NCBI RefSeq assembly: GCF_022869165.1 | Contig: NZ_CP094929.1 | Location: 806,001-870,000, forward strand | Length of the DNA: 64,000 nucleotides | Direction of reading: 5' to 3' | From: Sphaerochaeta associata | GTDB lineage: Bacteria > Spirochaetota > Spirochaetia > Sphaerochaetales > Sphaerochaetaceae | Program-made: the position numbers and the translations under genes | Part shown: in pieces, positions 50,425 through 61,652 of the stretch | Position numbering within the stretch: the first letter of the stretch is position 1 | Layout of the letters: each line of letters opens with the position of its first letter | The notes under the pieces: model-generated | Databases searched by the model: none | What the model was told of the DNA's origin: nothing | The model's input: only the letters and a program-made list of their open reading frames with translations

Positions 50425-51840
50425 ATGATTGATGAGTTGATTGCAGAGAGCACTGAATGTGATTTCAAAGTCGCACTTGAAACCAGAAAACCATAAAGTT
50501 GGTTGAAAAGTGTAAGCGCATACGCCAATTCCATTGGTGGTGTACTGTTTTTCGGTGTTGATAATGAGAAACAGGTAGTTGGTTTGCAAGACATCAAGCG
50601 TGATTCTGAAATCATCAGCAGGATGATTAAAGATCGTATAACGCCAATTCCCTTGTTTGAATTACTAGCGTCGAGAGATGGGGGTAAGGATATTCTTAGT
50701 CTGAAAGTGCATCCAGGAAGGTCCACTCCCTATTACTACAAAACGGATGGAGTCATGGAAGCATATATCAGAATTGGAAACGAAAGTGTGGTTGCCCCGG
50801 ATTATCTCCTCAATGAATTGATTTTGAAGGGTACCAACCGGTCGTTTGATGCAATGATTACTGATGCAAGGAAATCTGACTATAGCTTTACCCTGCTCGA
50901 AGCGACATACCTTGAACAAACCGGACTCCGTTTTGATGCATCAGATTACGTCTCATTCGGGCTTGCCGACAAGAAGGGGTTTCTCACGAATGCCGGCAAA
51001 CTTATGGCTGACCAATACATTGTTCTTAATTCAAGAGTGTTCTGTACCCGCTGGAACGGATTAGGCAAGGGTTCTATTTTTGATGATGCCCTCGATGCCA
51101 AGGAGTATGAGGGCAATCTCCTCAGTCTATTGCGTAACAGCAGTGATTTTGTCCGAAACAACTCAAAGGTCCGATTTGTCAAGGAGGCGCTGTATAGGAT
51201 CGATAAGCCGGATTATGCTGAAAGGGCTGTCACTGAAGCACTTGTCAATGCGTTGATTCACCGCGACTATATCATGCTTGGGAGTGAAGTTCACATCGAT
51301 GTATATGATGATCGTTTGGAAATACAATCCCCAGGTGGCATGTACTACGGGAGGGAGATTCAAGATTGCGACATTCGCTTCATTGGCAGTGCCAGGCGTA
51401 ATCCAATCCTGGCGGATTTGTTTCATCGAATGAAATTTATGGAACGAAGAGGTAGTGGGCTACCCAAGATTCTCAGTGAGACAGCCAAGCTGCCAGGGTA
51501 TACAGAAGGCATGAAACCAGTGTTCTTCTCAACTCCTTCTGATTTTCGAGTAGTTCTGAAAAATATCAACTACTTCTCAGAAACCATGCATGTGAAAGAA
51601 AAGGCGCAAGTCACCGAGCAAGTCACCGCGCAAGTCACCGCGCAAGATCCTCGGCAGAAGTTGCTCTTGGAGTTTTGTGCGATTCCCAGGACGAGAGAAG
51701 AAATGCAAGCATTCATCGGAATCGCACATCGCGAGTATTTCAGGTCATCGCTACTCAAGCCATTACTGAATTCAGGACGATTGAGGATGACAATTCCTGA
51801 CAAGCCAAACAGCCGTAACCAGAAGTACATTGCCTTTTGA
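50425..51840 (+). pseudogene. AlbA_2 putative regulator with in-frame stop
   Basis: ATG 50425 opens an N-terminus (I-D-E-L-I-A-E-S-T-E-C-D-F-K-V-A-L-E-T) that fits the start of AlbA_2 domains. TAA at 50494-50496 interrupts it. The same frame then reads W-L-K-S-V-S-A-Y-A-N-S-I-G-G-V-L-F-F-G-V and continues for about 445 codons, with L-V-N-A-L-I-H-R-D-Y and V-Y-D-D-R-L-E as in the HATPase-like part. The stop cuts the first domain, so the product is likely lost or starts late at TTG 50503. A tandem 12-base repeat at 51604-51645 encodes V-T-x-Q units. It is related to the intact gene at 9221-10507. Confidence 0.8.
51604..51645 (+). repeat. Tandem 12-base repeat encoding V-T-x-Q units
   Basis: Three near-identical units (GCGCAAGTCACC, GAGCAAGTCACC, GCGCAAGTCACC), followed by a partial fourth, encode A/E-Q-V-T repeats in the linker before the C-terminal winged helix. 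Slippage at such repeats would change linker length by four residues. Confidence 0.75.
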
Positions 51841-51948: not shown

Positions 51949-53391
51949 CTACCAATTACACTGCTCGTGCTTCCTTCCCGACACCTTCTCGCAGATTGCC
52001 TTCACTTCGTCTGCAGCATCCTCGAGTCTTCCCCCAGAGCGGAGGCGGATAAGTTCTGCTGCAACTATTTCACTGTTCTTCGGGCTCAGTTCAAACCATG
52101 AGGCTGCAATGATACCGGCAAGAATCAAGAGGGCAGGGCCGCCGATGAAGAATAGGAAGAATCGCGACAATACCTGAGGTGTCTGCTCGGCATTGGATAC
52201 AAAGCCAACCATCTGCAGGAACAGGCCAATCAGGGGCATTACCAACGCACCCTGCACTAGCTTTCGTGTCAGGGTCATTGCACCTGAATACACCCCTGAG
52301 CGCTGGCTGCCGGTCATCAGTTCATCCACATCGATGACATTAGGCAGGATGGCGTAGGGAATGAATACGGCGGCAGAGGTTCCCAACCCGATTACTGCGC
52401 ACACCAAGGCAACCATCCAGACAGGCGAAGTCGGTGAGAGTGCCAACGTACAGAGCATGCCCGTCAGCCAGATGAGCAGGCCCATCCGGTAGGCAAGTCG
52501 CTTGCCCTTGCTGTTTGCAATGCGCACATACACCATGATCATGACCAATTGGACTACCATGAGCGTTCCCATTGCCACCGAGTAGAGGTTGGGACGTTTC
52601 AGGTAGTAGGTGAGGTAGTAGGTAAAGAGTGCCATGAGCAGGTCCATCGCACTGTAGGCAAACACGTACATCAGAATATGGATGCGGAAAGAACGGTTTC
52701 GGAAGATGGTGAAGAACTCCTTGAGGAAGTTTGCCGATACGCTCTGCTGCTTCACCTGTGGGTCCTCCCAGGTCCCGAAGTAGGTGACCAGCCAAGGCAG
52801 GGCGAAGAAGATGCCGAAGGCCACCGACATGTACACATATCCGGTTGAGGGGTGCCCTGCAGCCGAATCGATGATGAGTTTGGGTATGGTGGCTGCAAGC
52901 AGGGAGGAGAAGCCTGAGAAGAACAGACGGGCGCCGGAGAGCTTGTTGCGTGTTTTATAGTCGCCTGAAAGTTCGGCTGCGAGTGCTGAATAAGGAATCA
53001 TGACCATGGTGAAGACGGTGGCGAAAACTATGTATGCAAAGCTGTAGTAGAGAAACAGGGCAGCTTGGGTTTCAAAATTCATCGGCAGCCAGAGAAGGAT
53101 GAAGGAGAGCGTGATAGGAACGATGCCGGCCAGAAAGTAGACCCGCCGCCTTCCAAACCGCGACTTCGTCTTATCGGAAAGGTAGCCCATAAGGGGATCG
53201 GATACGGCGTCCCATACTTTTCCTATGCCGAAGACCAGGCCGGCCAATGCAGGGGAGAGTCCTACCACCTCGGTGAGGTAGAAGAGGAACAACATGCCCA
53301 CGATCATGAAGGCCCCGCCGCCGTAGATGTCTCCCAATCCATAGGAAACAAGGGTTTTAAACGTAACCATCCTCTCTTTCTTCTCCATCAC
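51949..53391 (-). CDS. GPH-family sugar:cation symporter
   Basis: The 480-residue protein has 12 helices of the MelB/GPH (glycoside-pentoside-hexuronide) type. It opens F-K-T-L-V-S-Y-G-L-G-D near 10-20, with K-V-W-D-A-V-S-D-P-L-M-G near 58-69 (cation-site Asp pair), and D-K-T-K-S-R-F-G-R-R near 73-82. It imports a sugar with Na+ or H+. Its start overlaps the GH31 stop as ATGA, so it is translated with the two hydrolase genes. YihO and YihP, sulfoquinovose importers, are of this family. Confidence 0.9.
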   Translation of the reverse strand: MMEKKERMVTFKTLVSYGLGDIYGGGAFMIVGMLFLFYLTEVVGLSPALAGLVFGIGKVWDAVSDPLMGYLSDKTKSRFGRRRVYFLAGIVPITLSFILLWLPMNFETQAALFLYYSFAYIVFATVFTMVMIPYSALAAELSGDYKTRNKLSGARLFFSGFSSLLAATIPKLIIDSAAGHPSTGYVYMSVAFGIFFALPWLVTYFGTWEDPQVKQQSVSANFLKEFFTIFRNRSFRIHILMYVFAYSAMDLLMALFTYYLTYYLKRPNLYSVAMGTLMVVQLVMIMVYVRIANSKGKRLAYRMGLLIWLTGMLCTLALSPTSPVWMVALVCAVIGLGTSAAVFIPYAILPNVIDVDELMTGSQRSGVYSGAMTLTRKLVQGALVMPLIGLFLQMVGFVSNAEQTPQVLSRFFLFFIGGPALLILAGIIAASWFELSPKNSEIVAAELIRLRSGGRLEDAADEVKAICEKVSGRKHEQCNW

Positions 53392-55391
53392 ATGCTCTCC
53401 TTCTGTGCAATCTCCCTGAATAGATTCAGGAAGGGACTTGTTGAACGTATGAAAACGGGAATAGAGCCGATGTCAGCTCTGATGGCATAGCGGCCTTCAT
53501 TGTACACTTGCCCGGTAAAGAAATGTATCCATTTCCCTTCAGGCAGCCATACACGCCTCTTTCTTGCTCCCTTTTTCAGAACAGGAGCAACCAACAGATC
53601 CTGTCCATAGAAGTACTGGCCTTGTGCTACGCGATGCTTTTGGACCAGGACCGGCATAATCGGGGGGATTCCCTCTTTTTGATACTGCTCGCTGACATGC
53701 TGATGATAGAACAGCAACGCTTGATGAATACGTGCCATCCTCGCAAAATGCGACAACATCTCTTGGTCATCGTCGAACTGGGCATTTACCCTTGGGTTGA
53801 TGCCTTCGTGTGTTCTCATCACAGCGGTGAATGCTGCTGTTTCACAGCTACGCATCAGCAGCTCCCGGCTTCGCTTGATCCAGGCAAATGAGAAGAACCC
53901 TCCGATATCGAAGTGCCAGTACCCGATGCCCGAAAGTGCAGAGGAGATGGCCGCCCGAACAACAGAAGGAAGGCCGCTGTCGGCAAGGAAGTTTACCGCT
54001 TGGTCTCCCGCCCAGAACAGCGGGACATTGTTGCTGCTGCCGGTAAAGCCTGAACGGCAGAAGTAGACGATTTCATTGCCTTTCCCTGCCTCCTGTACTG
54101 CCTGTGCGTTAAGCTGTGCCCAACGTACAGGGTATCTATTGTGCTCCAGATAGGGGTCCATGTTGTCGAAGAGTTCTCCATCAGGAGGAAGATACTCGCC
54201 GAAATCGGCCATCCAGCCATCAAGTCCGATGGCCAGCATGTTCTCCTTGATGATCTGCTTGTACCACAAGCATGCCGCAGGGTTGCACAGATCCACCAAG
54301 GCTACGGGAAAAGTCGTCGTACTGGTGATGTAGGGTAATGAAGAGTGTTTTTGGCGAATGAAATAGCCCTTGCGTTCTCCCTCTGCATACAAAGGTGCAT
54401 CTGTACTGAGGAAGGGGTTGTTGTATCCAAGAAACTTGACGCCCCGTTCGTGCAGTTCTTCGATGAAACGAGGAAGGTCGGGATAGAGCTGCTGGTCGTA
54501 CTGCCAATTCCAGAAGAGCTGTTTGCCATAAGGTGTAATGCGGACGCCCTGCCAATCCTGACACCAGATTGCGGTCACAGGTATGCCTGCATCGAGGGCC
54601 CGCTTGAGCTTCGCTTCCACGACGGATCGACCGCCCTGCAGACCAAGGATTATGCCGTCGAAGGCCCAGTCCGGCAGGATTTCCTGCCTGCCCAGAAGTG
54701 AACTCAAGGCTCCGACAGCCGTAGGAATTGAACCAGCCTGTCCAACGTAGATTGATGATGGGATGTCATGGCAGAGAAGTGTGCAGCTGTCTTTTTGTGA
54801 AAAGTCGAATCGGCAGAATGCCGTGGTCTGGATGAGCGCCCACCGCCCTGCAGCCGTAACAAAGCTTGGTTGGGGAAAGTAGGTGTGCTCTTGCGACCCT
54901 CCGCGTCCCGAGTGGAGGTTTGCAAGCACTTTTACATAATTGGGTCCCCTTCCGATACCCGGCTCCGACACCCAAAGCGGGAGGATTTTTCCCCGGAGGT
55001 CCAGATGGGAAAACTGCTCTCCACAGCCGAAAATAGGGTCTTCAGGGAGGAGAGGAAGCTGTATGTGAAAGCGGTTGGGAACCTCGGATGTAAGGACCGT
55101 GGGTATGATTCTCAGTCCGAAGGGCTCTTCATGGATTGTCAATTTCACCAGATCGCCAAAGGTTATGTGTATCGTGCCTTCTTTCGTTTTACTCTCGTCA
55201 ACGCTGAACCGAGAGGGTTCCTTCCACATAGAAAGACTTTCGTCTTTGATGTGGTACATCCCATGGGGCATGGTAATGGTGCAGCTGCCCTGTCCGATGC
55301 CGATGCATGGACTTTTCTTTGAATGTTGAAGCACAGGAACTTCGTTATGGGAGAGTATGAAGCTGTCTTGGTTGGTTTGGATGTCGATCAT
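53388..55391 (-). CDS. GH31 alpha-glycosidase, YihQ-like subgroup
   Basis: The 667-residue enzyme starts at ATG 55391, behind ACAGGAG. The GH31 nucleophile D396 is in G-W-M-A-D-F-G-E-Y-L-P and the acid/base D463 in W-A-G-D-Q. Both contexts match E. coli YihQ, a sulfoquinovosidase. From memory of YihQ, sulfonate-site residues Q262, Q288, R301, W304, Y508 align to Q252, Q278, Q291, W294 and F499. R301 and Y508, key to sulfonate binding, are therefore changed. No signal peptide; a cytoplasmic enzyme acting on an imported alpha-glycoside is likely. It overlaps the neighbouring genes by four bases on each side. Confidence 0.85.
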   Translation of the reverse strand: MIDIQTNQDSFILSHNEVPVLQHSKKSPCIGIGQGSCTITMPHGMYHIKDESLSMWKEPSRFSVDESKTKEGTIHITFGDLVKLTIHEEPFGLRIIPTVLTSEVPNRFHIQLPLLPEDPIFGCGEQFSHLDLRGKILPLWVSEPGIGRGPNYVKVLANLHSGRGGSQEHTYFPQPSFVTAAGRWALIQTTAFCRFDFSQKDSCTLLCHDIPSSIYVGQAGSIPTAVGALSSLLGRQEILPDWAFDGIILGLQGGRSVVEAKLKRALDAGIPVTAIWCQDWQGVRITPYGKQLFWNWQYDQQLYPDLPRFIEELHERGVKFLGYNNPFLSTDAPLYAEGERKGYFIRQKHSSLPYITSTTTFPVALVDLCNPAACLWYKQIIKENMLAIGLDGWMADFGEYLPPDGELFDNMDPYLEHNRYPVRWAQLNAQAVQEAGKGNEIVYFCRSGFTGSSNNVPLFWAGDQAVNFLADSGLPSVVRAAISSALSGIGYWHFDIGGFFSFAWIKRSRELLMRSCETAAFTAVMRTHEGINPRVNAQFDDDQEMLSHFARMARIHQALLFYHQHVSEQYQKEGIPPIMPVLVQKHRVAQGQYFYGQDLLVAPVLKKGARKRRVWLPEGKWIHFFTGQVYNEGRYAIRADIGSIPVFIRSTSPFLNLFREIAQKESM

Positions 55392-57565
55392 GGGAGCTCT
55401 CCTGTTTCCGAAAATACACGGGCTGTCAGGCAAAGCTCTTTGGGAGGTCGGCTGCCTTGATAGGTCGCCAGGAGCAGCGAGAAGTGTACCTGTTCTCCTG
55501 CATACGAGGGTGCAGAGGAGTGGAGGTGTTCTGCTGTGAGCAATGCGGCCGTTCTCCCCCATCCCGTGGTCCTGGCCGGATACGTGTATTGTTCTCCCCA
55601 ATAGGTGCCGAAAGGATTGGCCGTAATGGTCTGTTTTCCATCGGTGATGGTTTGCCGTACTGGGCAGAATGCAAAGCCATGCAGATGCTTATGGCTCTGT
55701 GCAATGAGAAGGCCTGAAGAGCCGTCGGAAAGGGCGATCCAACTGGGTGTGACATGGTTGTTGATCGAGCAAAGGCCTTTATTTCCGCCATAGGCATAGT
55801 AGTCCAAGGGGTAGCTGCTCACTGCTCCACCGAAATCCTCCTTCCAAACAGTGATGGTAGTGGTAAGGGGTATGGTTTCAAAGGCTATGATTTCACACGG
55901 GGCTACCTGCTTCCATCGCTCGTCCCAGGTTCGTCCCAACCTTTGGGCCTTTACGTTGTCATACCCGTGCTCTTTCGTGGACGGGTACTCGACCAGGCAA
56001 TCGAGACAGAGAACTTGTAATCGTTCATCTATTCTGGCCGTTCGTCTCCAATGTACAGATGCTGATTCTCCTGCTCCCAGCGAGATGGTGCCTTGGGCGA
56101 TCGAGGCATTGAAGGCAATGGAGGTACTGCGGTGCACAAGCTTGTCATACATAACCCAAGGTGCTTTGATGACATGACGTACATAGTGTGTTTGGAGCGT
56201 AAGCGCTCCATCGACACTTGGTTCCAAGTGCAGGGGATTACTCTTCCAATGAGGAATTTCGATGTCACCCGGAACTGAAGCACTGGATCCCATGACATGC
56301 TCAAGCAGTATCCTTGCTTGTGTAATGGCATCCTCTGCCAGCAAGGTGGCTGCTTGCAGGCGGTGAACATTCATCACCGGTGCAGACAGGCCGAAATGCG
56401 TGGTGCTCAAGACTTGTAGCCTGGTGCGCATGGTTTGCATGGCAAGCTTTTGGAGTGCTTGAGGAAGGACCGCGCTCCATTGGTGAAAATCATCCTGCGA
56501 GGAAGGATCGAGGTGATTGGATGCAATAACCCAGCTTTTTGCAGCACCCCAATAGGTGCGTCCTTGTGTCACCATCGTCCAGAGCACATGGTTTTCATAC
56601 TTTTCCGCCCAGGAGGCGAAGCCGTCGAAGGCCCCGTCGGCAAGGTCCTGAGCGAAGGTGATCGTCCCCGCATTCTCATGGTTTGCCAGATACTCACTCG
56701 GCTTGATGAATGATACATACCCAAGGCCTGCGATGCTTTTCACGAGGTGATACAACCCGGCGAACGAAGGGGCGGCAACGCTGAGGGGAGGGAGAAGGAA
56801 ACCCTCCCAGAATGTGTCATCGGCGTCCATATCCAAAAGAACGATGAGATCGGTAGGTTTTGCCAGGCTCAGCTGTTTCCTTCTGATGCGCTTGAGCATG
56901 CGGCGTGCACTTAAGCCATACTCGGCCAGGTCTCCTTGATTGATGGCAGGAAGCAGCCGCATCGACTCTCCTCTCTCCCCATCGACCAACAACAGGGGAT
57001 TATAGCGCTCCGCGATGCCAAGCTTTGGCACGAATGAGCCGAATCCGTTGAACGGGATGGCGCTGTAATAGACTGAGAGAGTCTCGATTCCCAGCTGCTT
57101 GTAGAGCTTGAGATGAGAGGGGGTGACCATGCACTCCTGGGGTCGGACAATGGAAGTGCAAGCACTGAACACATCAATGTTGCCCGATCCATCAGGAGCC
57201 TTCAACGCCCATTCGACAGCCAGTTTGAACTCTTCAGGGGTATGAGCACTCAACAGTCCGTTGTTCCAGGACATGAGATGGATCTCATCACGACCTGTTG
57301 CAACGCGGTCCTTGATGCGATTCAGTATATCAGGTGCATGACGGGGGATGATGTGACCAAGGGAGAACACATTGTCGAAATCCCAGGCACAGTGGACAGA
57401 AATGCCTTCTGTTTCCAGCTTCTCCAGATCGTCCAGGATTCCCCTGATGATGCGTATGTCCTTGCCGAATCCTTGTTCATCGGCTGTGTCCCCGCGATAG
57501 GAGTGGTAAAAGTTTACATGAAACCGAGGACAGAAGTAGATGGTACGTTCGTCTCTCGGTTTCAT
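55388..57565 (-). CDS. Large putative glycoside hydrolase, family unassigned
   Basis: The 725-residue protein starts at ATG 57565, five bases after GGAGG. The N-terminal third resembles the GH38/GH57/deacetylase (beta/alpha)7-barrel superfamily: F-C-P-R-F-H-V-N-F-Y-H-S-Y-R-G-D near 9-24, then C-A-W-D-F-D-N near 60-66, and V-L-L-D-M-D-A-D-D near 245-253. The C-terminal 350 residues look like a beta-sandwich. I do not recognise the family. It is the first gene of the operon with a GH31 enzyme and GPH symporter, so it probably acts on the same glycan. Cytoplasmic (no signal peptide). Confidence 0.65.
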   Translation of the reverse strand: MKPRDERTIYFCPRFHVNFYHSYRGDTADEQGFGKDIRIIRGILDDLEKLETEGISVHCAWDFDNVFSLGHIIPRHAPDILNRIKDRVATGRDEIHLMSWNNGLLSAHTPEEFKLAVEWALKAPDGSGNIDVFSACTSIVRPQECMVTPSHLKLYKQLGIETLSVYYSAIPFNGFGSFVPKLGIAERYNPLLLVDGERGESMRLLPAINQGDLAEYGLSARRMLKRIRRKQLSLAKPTDLIVLLDMDADDTFWEGFLLPPLSVAAPSFAGLYHLVKSIAGLGYVSFIKPSEYLANHENAGTITFAQDLADGAFDGFASWAEKYENHVLWTMVTQGRTYWGAAKSWVIASNHLDPSSQDDFHQWSAVLPQALQKLAMQTMRTRLQVLSTTHFGLSAPVMNVHRLQAATLLAEDAITQARILLEHVMGSSASVPGDIEIPHWKSNPLHLEPSVDGALTLQTHYVRHVIKAPWVMYDKLVHRSTSIAFNASIAQGTISLGAGESASVHWRRTARIDERLQVLCLDCLVEYPSTKEHGYDNVKAQRLGRTWDERWKQVAPCEIIAFETIPLTTTITVWKEDFGGAVSSYPLDYYAYGGNKGLCSINNHVTPSWIALSDGSSGLLIAQSHKHLHGFAFCPVRQTITDGKQTITANPFGTYWGEQYTYPARTTGWGRTAALLTAEHLHSSAPSYAGEQVHFSLLLATYQGSRPPKELCLTARVFSETGELP

Positions 57566-57601
57566 ACTGCCTCCATGGGAACACATCACTGACCATCTAC
57601 T

Positions 57602-57629
57602 ACTATAGCCGAGGATGTTGTGCTGTCAA
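57602..57629 (-). promoter_or_regulatory. Promoter of the glycoside operon
   Basis: On the minus strand TTGACA (57629-57624) and TATAGT (57607-57602) are 16 bases apart, about 35 bases before the 725-aa gene. It matches the sigma-70 consensus well. Confidence 0.65.
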
Positions 57630-57705: not shown

Positions 57706-57739
57706 CTGAAAGTTGGTCTCCATGTCGACCAACTTTCAG
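57706..57739 (-). terminator. Inverted repeat after transglutaminase-like gene
   Basis: Perfect 12-base arms CTGAAAGTTGGT (57706-57717) and ACCAACTTTCAG (57728-57739) are followed on the minus strand only by TTTC. It probably ends the lipoprotein gene at 57748. Confidence 0.5.
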
Positions 57740-59239: not shown

Positions 59240-60027
59240 AGAATCAAGGATATTTTCGCAGTGGTCTGCCGTACACCCGGATTGGAAACGGCGACAAGCC
59301 ATTGGTCGTCTTCGATGGTCTCACCTTCGAACACAAGCCTCAGTCACCGGCAATGGTGAAGATGTATTCGTTTCTTGACAAGGAGTACACCATCTACAGT
59401 GTGCTGAGAAAGCCCAATCTTCCCCAGCAGTATTCACTTGATGACATGGCAGATGACTATGCCGTTATGATCAGGGAGGAGTTCGGAAAGCCGGTGGATA
59501 TCATCGGCATTTCCACTGGAGGTTCGGTCGCACTGCACTTTGCTCTGTTGCACCCCGACTTGGTACGTCGTTTGGTTCTCCACTCAAGCGCACACTCGCT
59601 GAACGACAAGGCCAAGCAGCTTCAATTGGATATTGCGCAGCTTGCACAAGCAGGGCAGTGGAGAAAAGCTTGGAGCGTGCTCATTGCAACCGGCTTTCCC
59701 CAATCAGGGATTGCTTCCCACCTCTGTAAGCCATTGATAGGAATCATCGCTGTGTTGCTTTCGATGCATCATCCCAAAGACGCCAACGACCTGCTGGTGA
59801 CAGTGCAAGCCGAGGACAAGCATGCATTTCAGTCACAATTACATGAAATTTCCTGTCCGACTTTGGTGGCAGGCGGTGAGGATGACTACTTCTACAGTCC
59901 CGAGCTTTTCAAACAAACGGCTGCCGGTATTCCCAATGCCAGACTCTGCCTCTATGCAAATATGGGGCATCCAGCCGGGGGAAAGCAGTTCAGAGAGGAT
60001 GTGTTACGGTTCCTTCGAGAACGATAG
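59236..60027 (+). CDS. Alpha/beta hydrolase
   Basis: About 263 residues if read from GTG 59236 (GTGA overlap with the flavodoxin stop); ATG 59215, seven codons earlier, is possible. The nucleophile elbow is G-I-S-T-G-G near 89-94, the acid in G-G-E-D-D-Y near 218-223, and the His in M-G-H-P near 245-248. It fits the alpha/beta hydrolase fold 1; substrate is unknown. The last 24 bases overlap the converging lipoprotein gene. Confidence 0.82.
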   Translation: MKNQGYFRSGLPYTRIGNGDKPLVVFDGLTFEHKPQSPAMVKMYSFLDKEYTIYSVLRKPNLPQQYSLDDMADDYAVMIREEFGKPVDIIGISTGGSVALHFALLHPDLVRRLVLHSSAHSLNDKAKQLQLDIAQLAQAGQWRKAWSVLIATGFPQSGIASHLCKPLIGIIAVLLSMHHPKDANDLLVTVQAEDKHAFQSQLHEISCPTLVAGGEDDYFYSPELFKQTAAGIPNARLCLYANMGHPAGGKQFREDVLRFLRER

Positions 60028-61506
60028 AATTTTTATAGCTTTCAGTAATTCGACATCCACGCCTTGAGCGATGTTCAGGGCATGCTCTTTGGTCATGGGA
60101 ATTCGAATGGTGGGCTGAGCCCCTCCAATTCCATTCCTGCTGTCCAATTGGATTTTGTGATTCTCATCCAGTGATTGTCCGTTCGGCCAGTGAACAACAA
60201 GGCCTCCAGGCATGGCAGCTATGCCGGATGCAAGGCCGAATGAGCCATTGGTGCCCAAGAACCCCAAGACTTCTCCGTTTGGTAGATTTCGAATCCCCAT
60301 GGCAATGCCTTCACCCGAGCTGACACAGTGAGAATTCACCAAGGCGATGATGGGCCCTCTGTATTGTACTGCATTTGGTTCAATGAATACGGGCTGCTTC
60401 CCATTCTCCTCGCTGGAGGGCAGTAGTTCCCAAGTACCCGTTTCGGGGTTGTATGCATTCAGATATTCGTAGAAGGTTCGTTCGGAATAGAAGCAGCCGA
60501 GAAGATCGGCTGCCATCTGATCCATTCCTCCGATGTTGTTCCTGATATCGAGGATGATGCCTGTTGCTTTCTGCTCAACAGCCGTCGCTACAGCCTGTTC
60601 GAACAGAGTGACGGTAGAAAGGACTTTTCCTGTCATCTGAAGGTCGGCATCGAGCAATCCCCAGACTTTTATGTACGCAATATCGTGTGCCAACATCTCG
60701 GTTTCCACCATGGACCGGGGCATGGGTTCATCTGTTTCAATCTCCAGTATGGCTTTACGGATCCTATCTGAGACTACGCTATCGGGATAGCCTTTGCTCA
60801 AAGAGGCCCTGTTGTCATCGTAGGCTGAAACCTGCACGGTATGTATAGTGTCACCCTCGATTGAACGGAAGGTTGCTTGGTGCTGTTCACCTATTGGTGC
60901 GCGTACCAGATACTGTTGCTGTGCAAGATGCAAGTCTTCGCCGGTGGCGCAATTGCTGGTGAAGATGGGAAGGACAGCATCGATGGCAGCCGCAATGGGA
61001 ATGCCGTCCCAAGAGAGGATTTCACATCCTGCTCTCATCCCCGCATTCCAAGCTTCGCCTTGTTCCTCTACCCAGGTGGCGATGACGCTTGTGTCATCAA
61101 GATGCGCGATGGAAAATCCAAAGCCTCCGCCGATGTACTGGTCATCGATGGCTGCGATGTTGTTGATGCTTACGTGCCGGTCGGGGATTTTGTGCAGGTA
61201 GCTTCTGAGGGCAAGGTAGTAGGCGGGAAAATCCTGACTTGCTTGAGCTTCAATAATCTGTGGATTGTAGGTTTCAAAGAGAACATCCCAATCGATGCCC
61301 TTCCACTCGGTGAAGGCATACTCGGTCGCCAGTTGTCGGCTGAGGGTGCTGAAGGCTTCTTCCCATGAGAGCTCGCTGTAGTCGTTTGGCAGCTCTTCAT
61401 TGCCGATAGCAGATTCAACAGGCATGGATTTGCATGCTGTGACCAGGGCAAGAATCATCAAAAGTACGAGCGTCCCGTAATAGGACCTGCGATGTATGGT
61501 GAGCAT
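60004..61506 (-). CDS. S41-family peptidase-like lipoprotein
   Basis: The 500-residue protein starts at ATG 61506, behind GGGAGA. Lipobox A-L-V-T-A-C ends at C25. A PDZ-like segment, G-M-R-A-G-C-E-I-L-S-W-D-G near 156-168, precedes the S41/tricorn core with G-I-I-L-D-I-R-N-N-I-G-G near 316-327 and the likely nucleophile Ser in V-S-S-G-E-G (396-397). Likely an envelope protease; targets are unknown. Confidence 0.83.
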   Translation of the reverse strand: MLTIHRRSYYGTLVLLMILALVTACKSMPVESAIGNEELPNDYSELSWEEAFSTLSRQLATEYAFTEWKGIDWDVLFETYNPQIIEAQASQDFPAYYLALRSYLHKIPDRHVSINNIAAIDDQYIGGGFGFSIAHLDDTSVIATWVEEQGEAWNAGMRAGCEILSWDGIPIAAAIDAVLPIFTSNCATGEDLHLAQQQYLVRAPIGEQHQATFRSIEGDTIHTVQVSAYDDNRASLSKGYPDSVVSDRIRKAILEIETDEPMPRSMVETEMLAHDIAYIKVWGLLDADLQMTGKVLSTVTLFEQAVATAVEQKATGIILDIRNNIGGMDQMAADLLGCFYSERTFYEYLNAYNPETGTWELLPSSEENGKQPVFIEPNAVQYRGPIIALVNSHCVSSGEGIAMGIRNLPNGEVLGFLGTNGSFGLASGIAAMPGGLVVHWPNGQSLDENHKIQLDSRNGIGGAQPTIRIPMTKEHALNIAQGVDVELLKAIKILSFSKEP

Positions 61507-61652
61507 GGTATTCTCCCTGTGTAACAGGGGACAGTATATCACGAAGTATGCTCAAGGAGCTCATCGTTTGATTGCATTGTACATAAGCGGGTATTATCAT
61601 GCATATAAAAAGGTTACCTGAGGGGAAGCAGTTAATGCAAAGAGAGGCTTGT

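Follow-up and report, generated by a model that had tools for sequence, protein, structure and literature searches.

Three genes, referred to here as A, B and C, follow one another on the minus strand of the window (the whole 64,000-nucleotide stretch of Sphaerochaeta associata DNA that was analysed, contig NZ_CP094929.1, positions 806,001 to 870,000) in the order promoter, A, B, C (Table 1). A preliminary description of this DNA had presented them as a coupled operon with an ATGA at each joint. The overlapping frames and the one conserved promoter support the operon, and the A/B joint is indeed ATGA (4 nt overlap), but the joint between B and C is GTGA (4 nt overlap) if C starts at GTG 53391, or TGATG (1 nt overlap) if it starts at ATG 53388.

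Table 1. Features of the A-B-C operon and its upstream region, in window positions.
Feature	Position	Strand	Basis
Promoter, sigma-70-type, TTGACA-16-TATAGT	57602..57629	-	11/12 matches in promoter scan
Ribosome binding site of gene A, GGAGG	57570..57574	-	Sequence; GGAGG also kept in the aligned upstream regions
Gene A, 725 aa, ATG start, predicted GH57 fold	55388..57565	-	AlphaFold2 models, fold matches, invariant residues
Gene B, GH31, YihQ clade, 666-667 aa	53388..55391	-	Pfam, NCBIfam, residue alignment
Gene C, GPH cation symporter / MFS_2, 479-480 aa	51949..53391	-	PF13347, TIGR00792
Hairpin, CTGAAAGTTGGTC...GAGACCAACTTTCAG	57706..57739	-	Read from the sequence, between the transglutaminase-like gene and the promoter

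Promoter-like sites are not in excess over the whole region (3 versus 4.5 in shuffled sequences). The site upstream of A, which the preliminary description had proposed, is nevertheless retained in diverged orthologue upstream regions. Both hexamers are found upstream of the G018 and L010 orthologues, and in L011 as TTGACA...TATAGT, and the DNA flanking the promoter has otherwise diverged in all three. Five upstream regions were aligned (window, L009, L015, L010 and L011), of which the window and L009 are near-identical. The hairpin is absent from the terminator-scan output and may mark the transcript end of the upstream transglutaminase-like gene.

The neighbours of the operon in the window are his-operon, AlbA_2, transglutaminase-like and S41 genes; isomerase, kinase and aldolase genes were not found in this neighbourhood, as had been noted before. 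Downstream, positions 50503-51837 encode a protein with SLFN AlbA_2 and HATPase_c_4 domains and a Fic-like C-terminus, at the place of which G018 and L009 have ABC-exporter-like genes. Upstream, positions 60004-61542 encode an S41 peptidase with a Tricorn_C1 domain and an N-terminus that is probably lipoprotein-like. The L010 contig (MPPA01000043.1) is assigned to an archaeal Methanococcoides MAG. Its A gene is 74% identical to that of the window, and the AAA-type gene upstream is the same as in G018; the contig is probably a mis-binned piece of Sphaerochaeta DNA.

Sequence family and predicted fold of the first protein

The first protein had been called large and unassigned, and it matches no Pfam family at E<=1 and nothing significantly in NCBIfam, PDB sequences, PHROGs, plasmids or viral contigs. 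PF03065 (GH57) was not matched above its gathering score by A, and the best value among 19 homologues was an E of 0.062 in one of them; A has no match to PF01074 (GH38). When the A profile was compared by hhalign with profiles built from spirochaete proteins, the result was insignificant both for GH57 (E 0.065, probability <1%) and for GH38 (E 0.12 over 30 columns, probability <1%). The case named in the preliminary description as the one that would overturn it, an ordinary GH38 mannosidase, was rejected on the missing PF01074 match and the insignificant GH38 profile comparison. A true GH38 gene is present separately in the same genome, at 601 kb.

Homologues of A were found in 20 of the 393 sampled Spirochaetota genomes and in six contigs from a broader collection, genomes beyond Spirochaetota being scanned by peptide-pattern search only, and they range down to about 31% identity. 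Two architectures occur, a soluble one of about 700-845 aa with no hydrophobic N-terminus, and an N-terminally anchored one of about 975-990 aa with an extra C-terminal part. The longer, membrane-anchored proteins with the extra C-terminal domain (L047-L050, L053 and L054) have no GPH partner and are a possible extracytoplasmic version of the enzyme. One A-family gene (L056:8627-9562, in G095) lacks an inner segment of the conserved N-terminal domain and may be a decayed copy.

AlphaFold2 models were built on six sequences for the full length of A and for residues 1-431. Their confidence is moderate (pLDDT 71 and 77, respectively), and three conserved loops (169-177, 307-324 and 390-398) are rendered poorly. 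In the models a (beta/alpha)7 barrel and a helical bundle (about 1-430) are followed by a C-terminal beta-sandwich (about 442-725), an arrangement shared with the GH57 4-alpha-glucanotransferase 1k1x and the amylopullulanases 7e1y and 9ihu. The best Foldseek match of the full-length model was 1k1x (E 1.8e-14), with GH38 enzymes next. Over the full length the alignment to 1k1x (VIA-align) gave a Z of 24.5 and an rmsd of 12.6 over 449 residues, the rmsd presumably reflecting a different placement of the domains. The barrel and bundle of the full-length model aligned to 7e1y with Z 23.6 and rmsd 3.9 (354 residues), and the separate domain model aligned to 7e1y with Z 25.2 and rmsd 3.8 (349 residues) and to 1k1x with Z 24.2 and rmsd 4.1 (334 residues). 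GH38 enzymes, which also combine a barrel, a helical part and a beta-sandwich, matched at Z 13-19, the highest value being 18.9 for the separate domain model. The likeness of A to GH57 at the level of the predicted fold is therefore well supported, unlike that at the level of sequence.

GH57 enzymes carry a Glu on beta-4 and an Asp on beta-7 (PMC6037648). In the model of A, E144 stands after strand 139-141 (beta-4) and D247 is the end of strand 240-247 (beta-7), and both are invariant in the 19 homologues. The hhalign comparison with GH57, itself insignificant, placed M146 two positions after the nucleophile, which fits E144 at the nucleophile position. The GH38 zinc site consists of His, Asp, Asp and His; read from the sequence motifs, the putative counterparts in A would be H16, N18, E144 and H390. 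This reading gives H16-V-N18 where GH38 has H-x-D, and a candidate nucleophile that is Glu where GH38 has Asp; H390 is replaced by Asn in the anchored members.

The same kind of barrel is found outside glycosidases, and A could instead be another hydrolase on this scaffold, such as a deacetylase, or a catalytically dead protein that binds carbohydrate. CE4 and PuuE-type barrels do match A (Z 13-18), and A shows neither the GH57 nor the GH38 sequence signatures. These matches, however, cover only about 180-270 residues, whereas those to GH57 take in the helical bundle (316-364 residues) and those to GH38 reach residue 721, and the acidic set E144, D247, D249 and D250 does not vary even among strongly diverged members. 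We consider such a non-glycosidase role unlikely, and a CE4-type deacetylase in particular was rejected on its smaller coverage. Given the predicted GH57-like fold and the invariant Glu and Asp at beta-4 and beta-7, A most likely represents an undescribed family with the GH57 fold and works as a retaining glycosidase in the cytosol, its location, activity and catalytic residues being predictions. The earlier suggestion that the first protein is a hydrolase is on this evidence probable.

An altered GH31 of the YihQ clade and its transporter

Gene B is a GH31 by Pfam and scores 717.9 bits against the NCBIfam YihQ equivalog PRK10426 (cut-off 553), so that the label "YihQ-like" was right by homology, and its relation to YicI is distant (PRK10658, 192.8 bits, cut-off 606). 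It is about 40% identical to the sulfoquinovosidases YihQ and SftG and keeps their catalytic Asp pair (D405 and D472 in YihQ numbering, used throughout) as well as Q288 and W304. It differs from them by the substitutions R301Q, Y508F, T509F and N540I and by lying in an operon without sulfoglycolytic genes. R301, W304 and Y508 of YihQ reportedly contact the sulfonate (Speciale et al. 2016); Q301, W304 and F508 are common to B and its orthologues. As the sulfonate-holding positions are changed in B, the enzyme probably acts on a sugar other than sulfoquinovose and has probably lost sulfoquinovoside specificity, to judge from the residue alignment.

The three changes Q301, F508 and I540 occur together in the window clade and in L059 (G281) only, among 28 further spirochaete YihQ-clade GH31s. 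Many of these enzymes have Gln301 while retaining Y508 and N540. One example, L089:8498-10552, is a YihQ-clade GH31 in a cluster with transketolase, RpiB and fucose-isomerase-like genes, which possibly serves a different sulfosugar. Because Gln301 is found in such a sulfo-transketolase-like cluster, R301Q alone is not diagnostic and a sulfosugar substrate is still conceivable.

Gene C was described as a GPH symporter, in agreement with its score against PF13347 (MFS_2; 255.6 bits, cut-off 27); against TIGR00792 it scores 222.3 bits, just under the cut-off of 231.35. Its identity is 26% to YihO and 25% to YihP, and it forms a separate long branch in the tree. The preliminary description had seen in the operon the core of the E. 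coli yih locus. A YihQ-clade GH31 and a GPH transporter are both present, but the comparison was overstated, as C stands apart from YihO and YihP, isomerase, kinase, aldolase and mutarotase genes are missing, and the leading gene A is unrelated. The likeness to the yih locus comes from B alone. The idea that the whole operon derives from E. coli yih is not supported, since the conserved unit is A with a GPH gene, GH31 is part of it only in Sphaerochaeta, and a GH31-GPH pair without A occurs in G281. The E. coli yicJ-yicI pair, a GPH transporter with a GH31 alpha-xylosidase, follows the same logic of a GPH symporter that imports and a cytosolic GH31 that cleaves; it differs in that B is distant from YicI and A has no counterpart there.

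A second YihQ is encoded in the same genome (G000:C1:2684117-2686093; L016:8618-10624). It is 41% identical to B, keeps R301, W304 and Y508 and is surrounded by genes for an ABC transporter, a sulfoquinovose-isomerase-like protein, two transketolase halves and RpiB. A mannonate dehydratase and a fructuronate-reductase-like gene lie a few kb away. The cluster at 2.684 Mb is similar to the sulfo-transketolase pathway (PMC11659671), and transcription of that pathway by Sphaerochaetaceae has been seen in rumen microcosms (PMC13219744). Sulfoquinovose use is probably served by this separate cluster with its own canonical sulfoquinovosidase, which would account for the isomerase, kinase and aldolase that the operon lacks.

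The operon could alternatively be an accessory sulfosugar system, in which B would cut a sulfoquinovoside, a sulfofucoside or another sulfosugar, C would import it and the sulfo-transketolase genes at 2.68 Mb would degrade it. The high score of B to the YihQ model, the retained W304 and Q288 and the sulfo-transketolase-like cluster of this genome, a type of pathway that Sphaerochaetaceae express in the rumen, are consistent with this, as is a GPH 49% identical to C in a sulfo-transketolase-like cluster of G095 (L088). Such a role is nonetheless improbable, as the 2.68 Mb cluster has its own canonical YihQ and its own transporter, positions 301, 508 and 540 are all changed in B, and no sulfoglycolytic isomerase or transketolase was found next to B, be it in the window, G018, L011 or G281.

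Conserved neighbours and the proposed role of the operon

Among Spirochaetota loci with enough flank, a GPH gene lies beside A in 13 of 16 of the soluble type (the window, L009, L015, L011, L012, L013, L041, L042, L043, L045, L046, L051 and L052, of which the window and L009 are near-identical and hence not independent) versus none of the six anchored ones. The three soluble-type loci that have no adjoining GPH are L014, L040 and L044. Confident GPH genes number just four in the 3.55 Mb genome to which the window belongs, so this adjacency is far above chance, and it sets the A family apart from GH57. The arrangement varies, being head-to-tail, with GPH first, or divergent (L041). The constant unit is A with GPH, and GH31 joined it only in Sphaerochaeta.

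The search for the same trio in other spirochaetes, put forward in the preliminary description, recovered the order A-B-C in G018 (L015), L011 and L009/G012. It could be argued that the three genes are a chance neighbourhood of unrelated substrates, because most loci with A and GPH have no GH31, and in G281 a B-type GH31 and a GPH 60% identical to C stand together in the absence of A. This is very unlikely in view of the overlapping frames, the promoter conserved between diverged orthologues and the trio order, shared by at least three species with A proteins at 62-71% identity to that of the window.

The operon is best read, with a probability of roughly 0.6, as a self-contained unit for import and cleavage, and the transport-and-cleavage route suggested earlier is supported in so far as a GPH symporter, a YihQ-clade GH31 and a probable hydrolase are coupled. 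C would import a small glycoside or oligosaccharide, probably alpha-linked, in symport with a cation, and A and B would hydrolyse it in the cytosol. A would probably act as a retaining glycosidase with Glu144 as nucleophile and Asp247 as acid/base, from a family with the predicted GH57/GH38 architecture and detectable sequence similarity to neither. B would be a retaining GH31 alpha-glycosidase that descended from sulfoquinovosidases and whose sugar is probably other than sulfoquinovose. The freed sugars would enter general metabolism through genes elsewhere.

As to the substrate, A is clustered with mannonate dehydratase and D-mannonate oxidoreductase genes in L043, L044 and L052. In L052 the order is GPH, A, a sugar-epimerase-like gene (sugar 3-epimerase-like), FucI, D-mannonate oxidoreductase, mannonate dehydratase and LacI. 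The anchored A of L050 has a mannonate dehydratase and an MFS transporter of the D-galactonate type nearby. The mannonate-dehydratase neighbours in these four loci hint at a hexuronide, the favoured guess for the A family at large and a mere guess for the operon in the window. A more specific proposal would make A the founder of a new glycoside hydrolase family with the GH57/GH38 fold, its substrate being an alpha-linked hexuronide. In Sphaerochaeta it would work with a GH31 that switched from sulfoquinovosides to a carboxylated or neutral sugar, with the Gln of B in place of the sulfonate-binding Arg; we regard this as possible though doubtful.

The NCBI YihQ equivalog model, which gives B 718 bits, labels enzymes with altered sulfonate-binding residues, and this bears on surveys in which yihQ is taken as a sign of sulfoquinovose degradation. 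Gene A is a candidate new glycoside hydrolase family, in which the predicted catalytic fold is recognisable, the acidic residues are invariant and the transporter partner is fixed; it is from such cases that new families of these enzymes are discovered. If A is active, the GH57/GH38 fold group would extend beyond alpha-glucans and mannosides.
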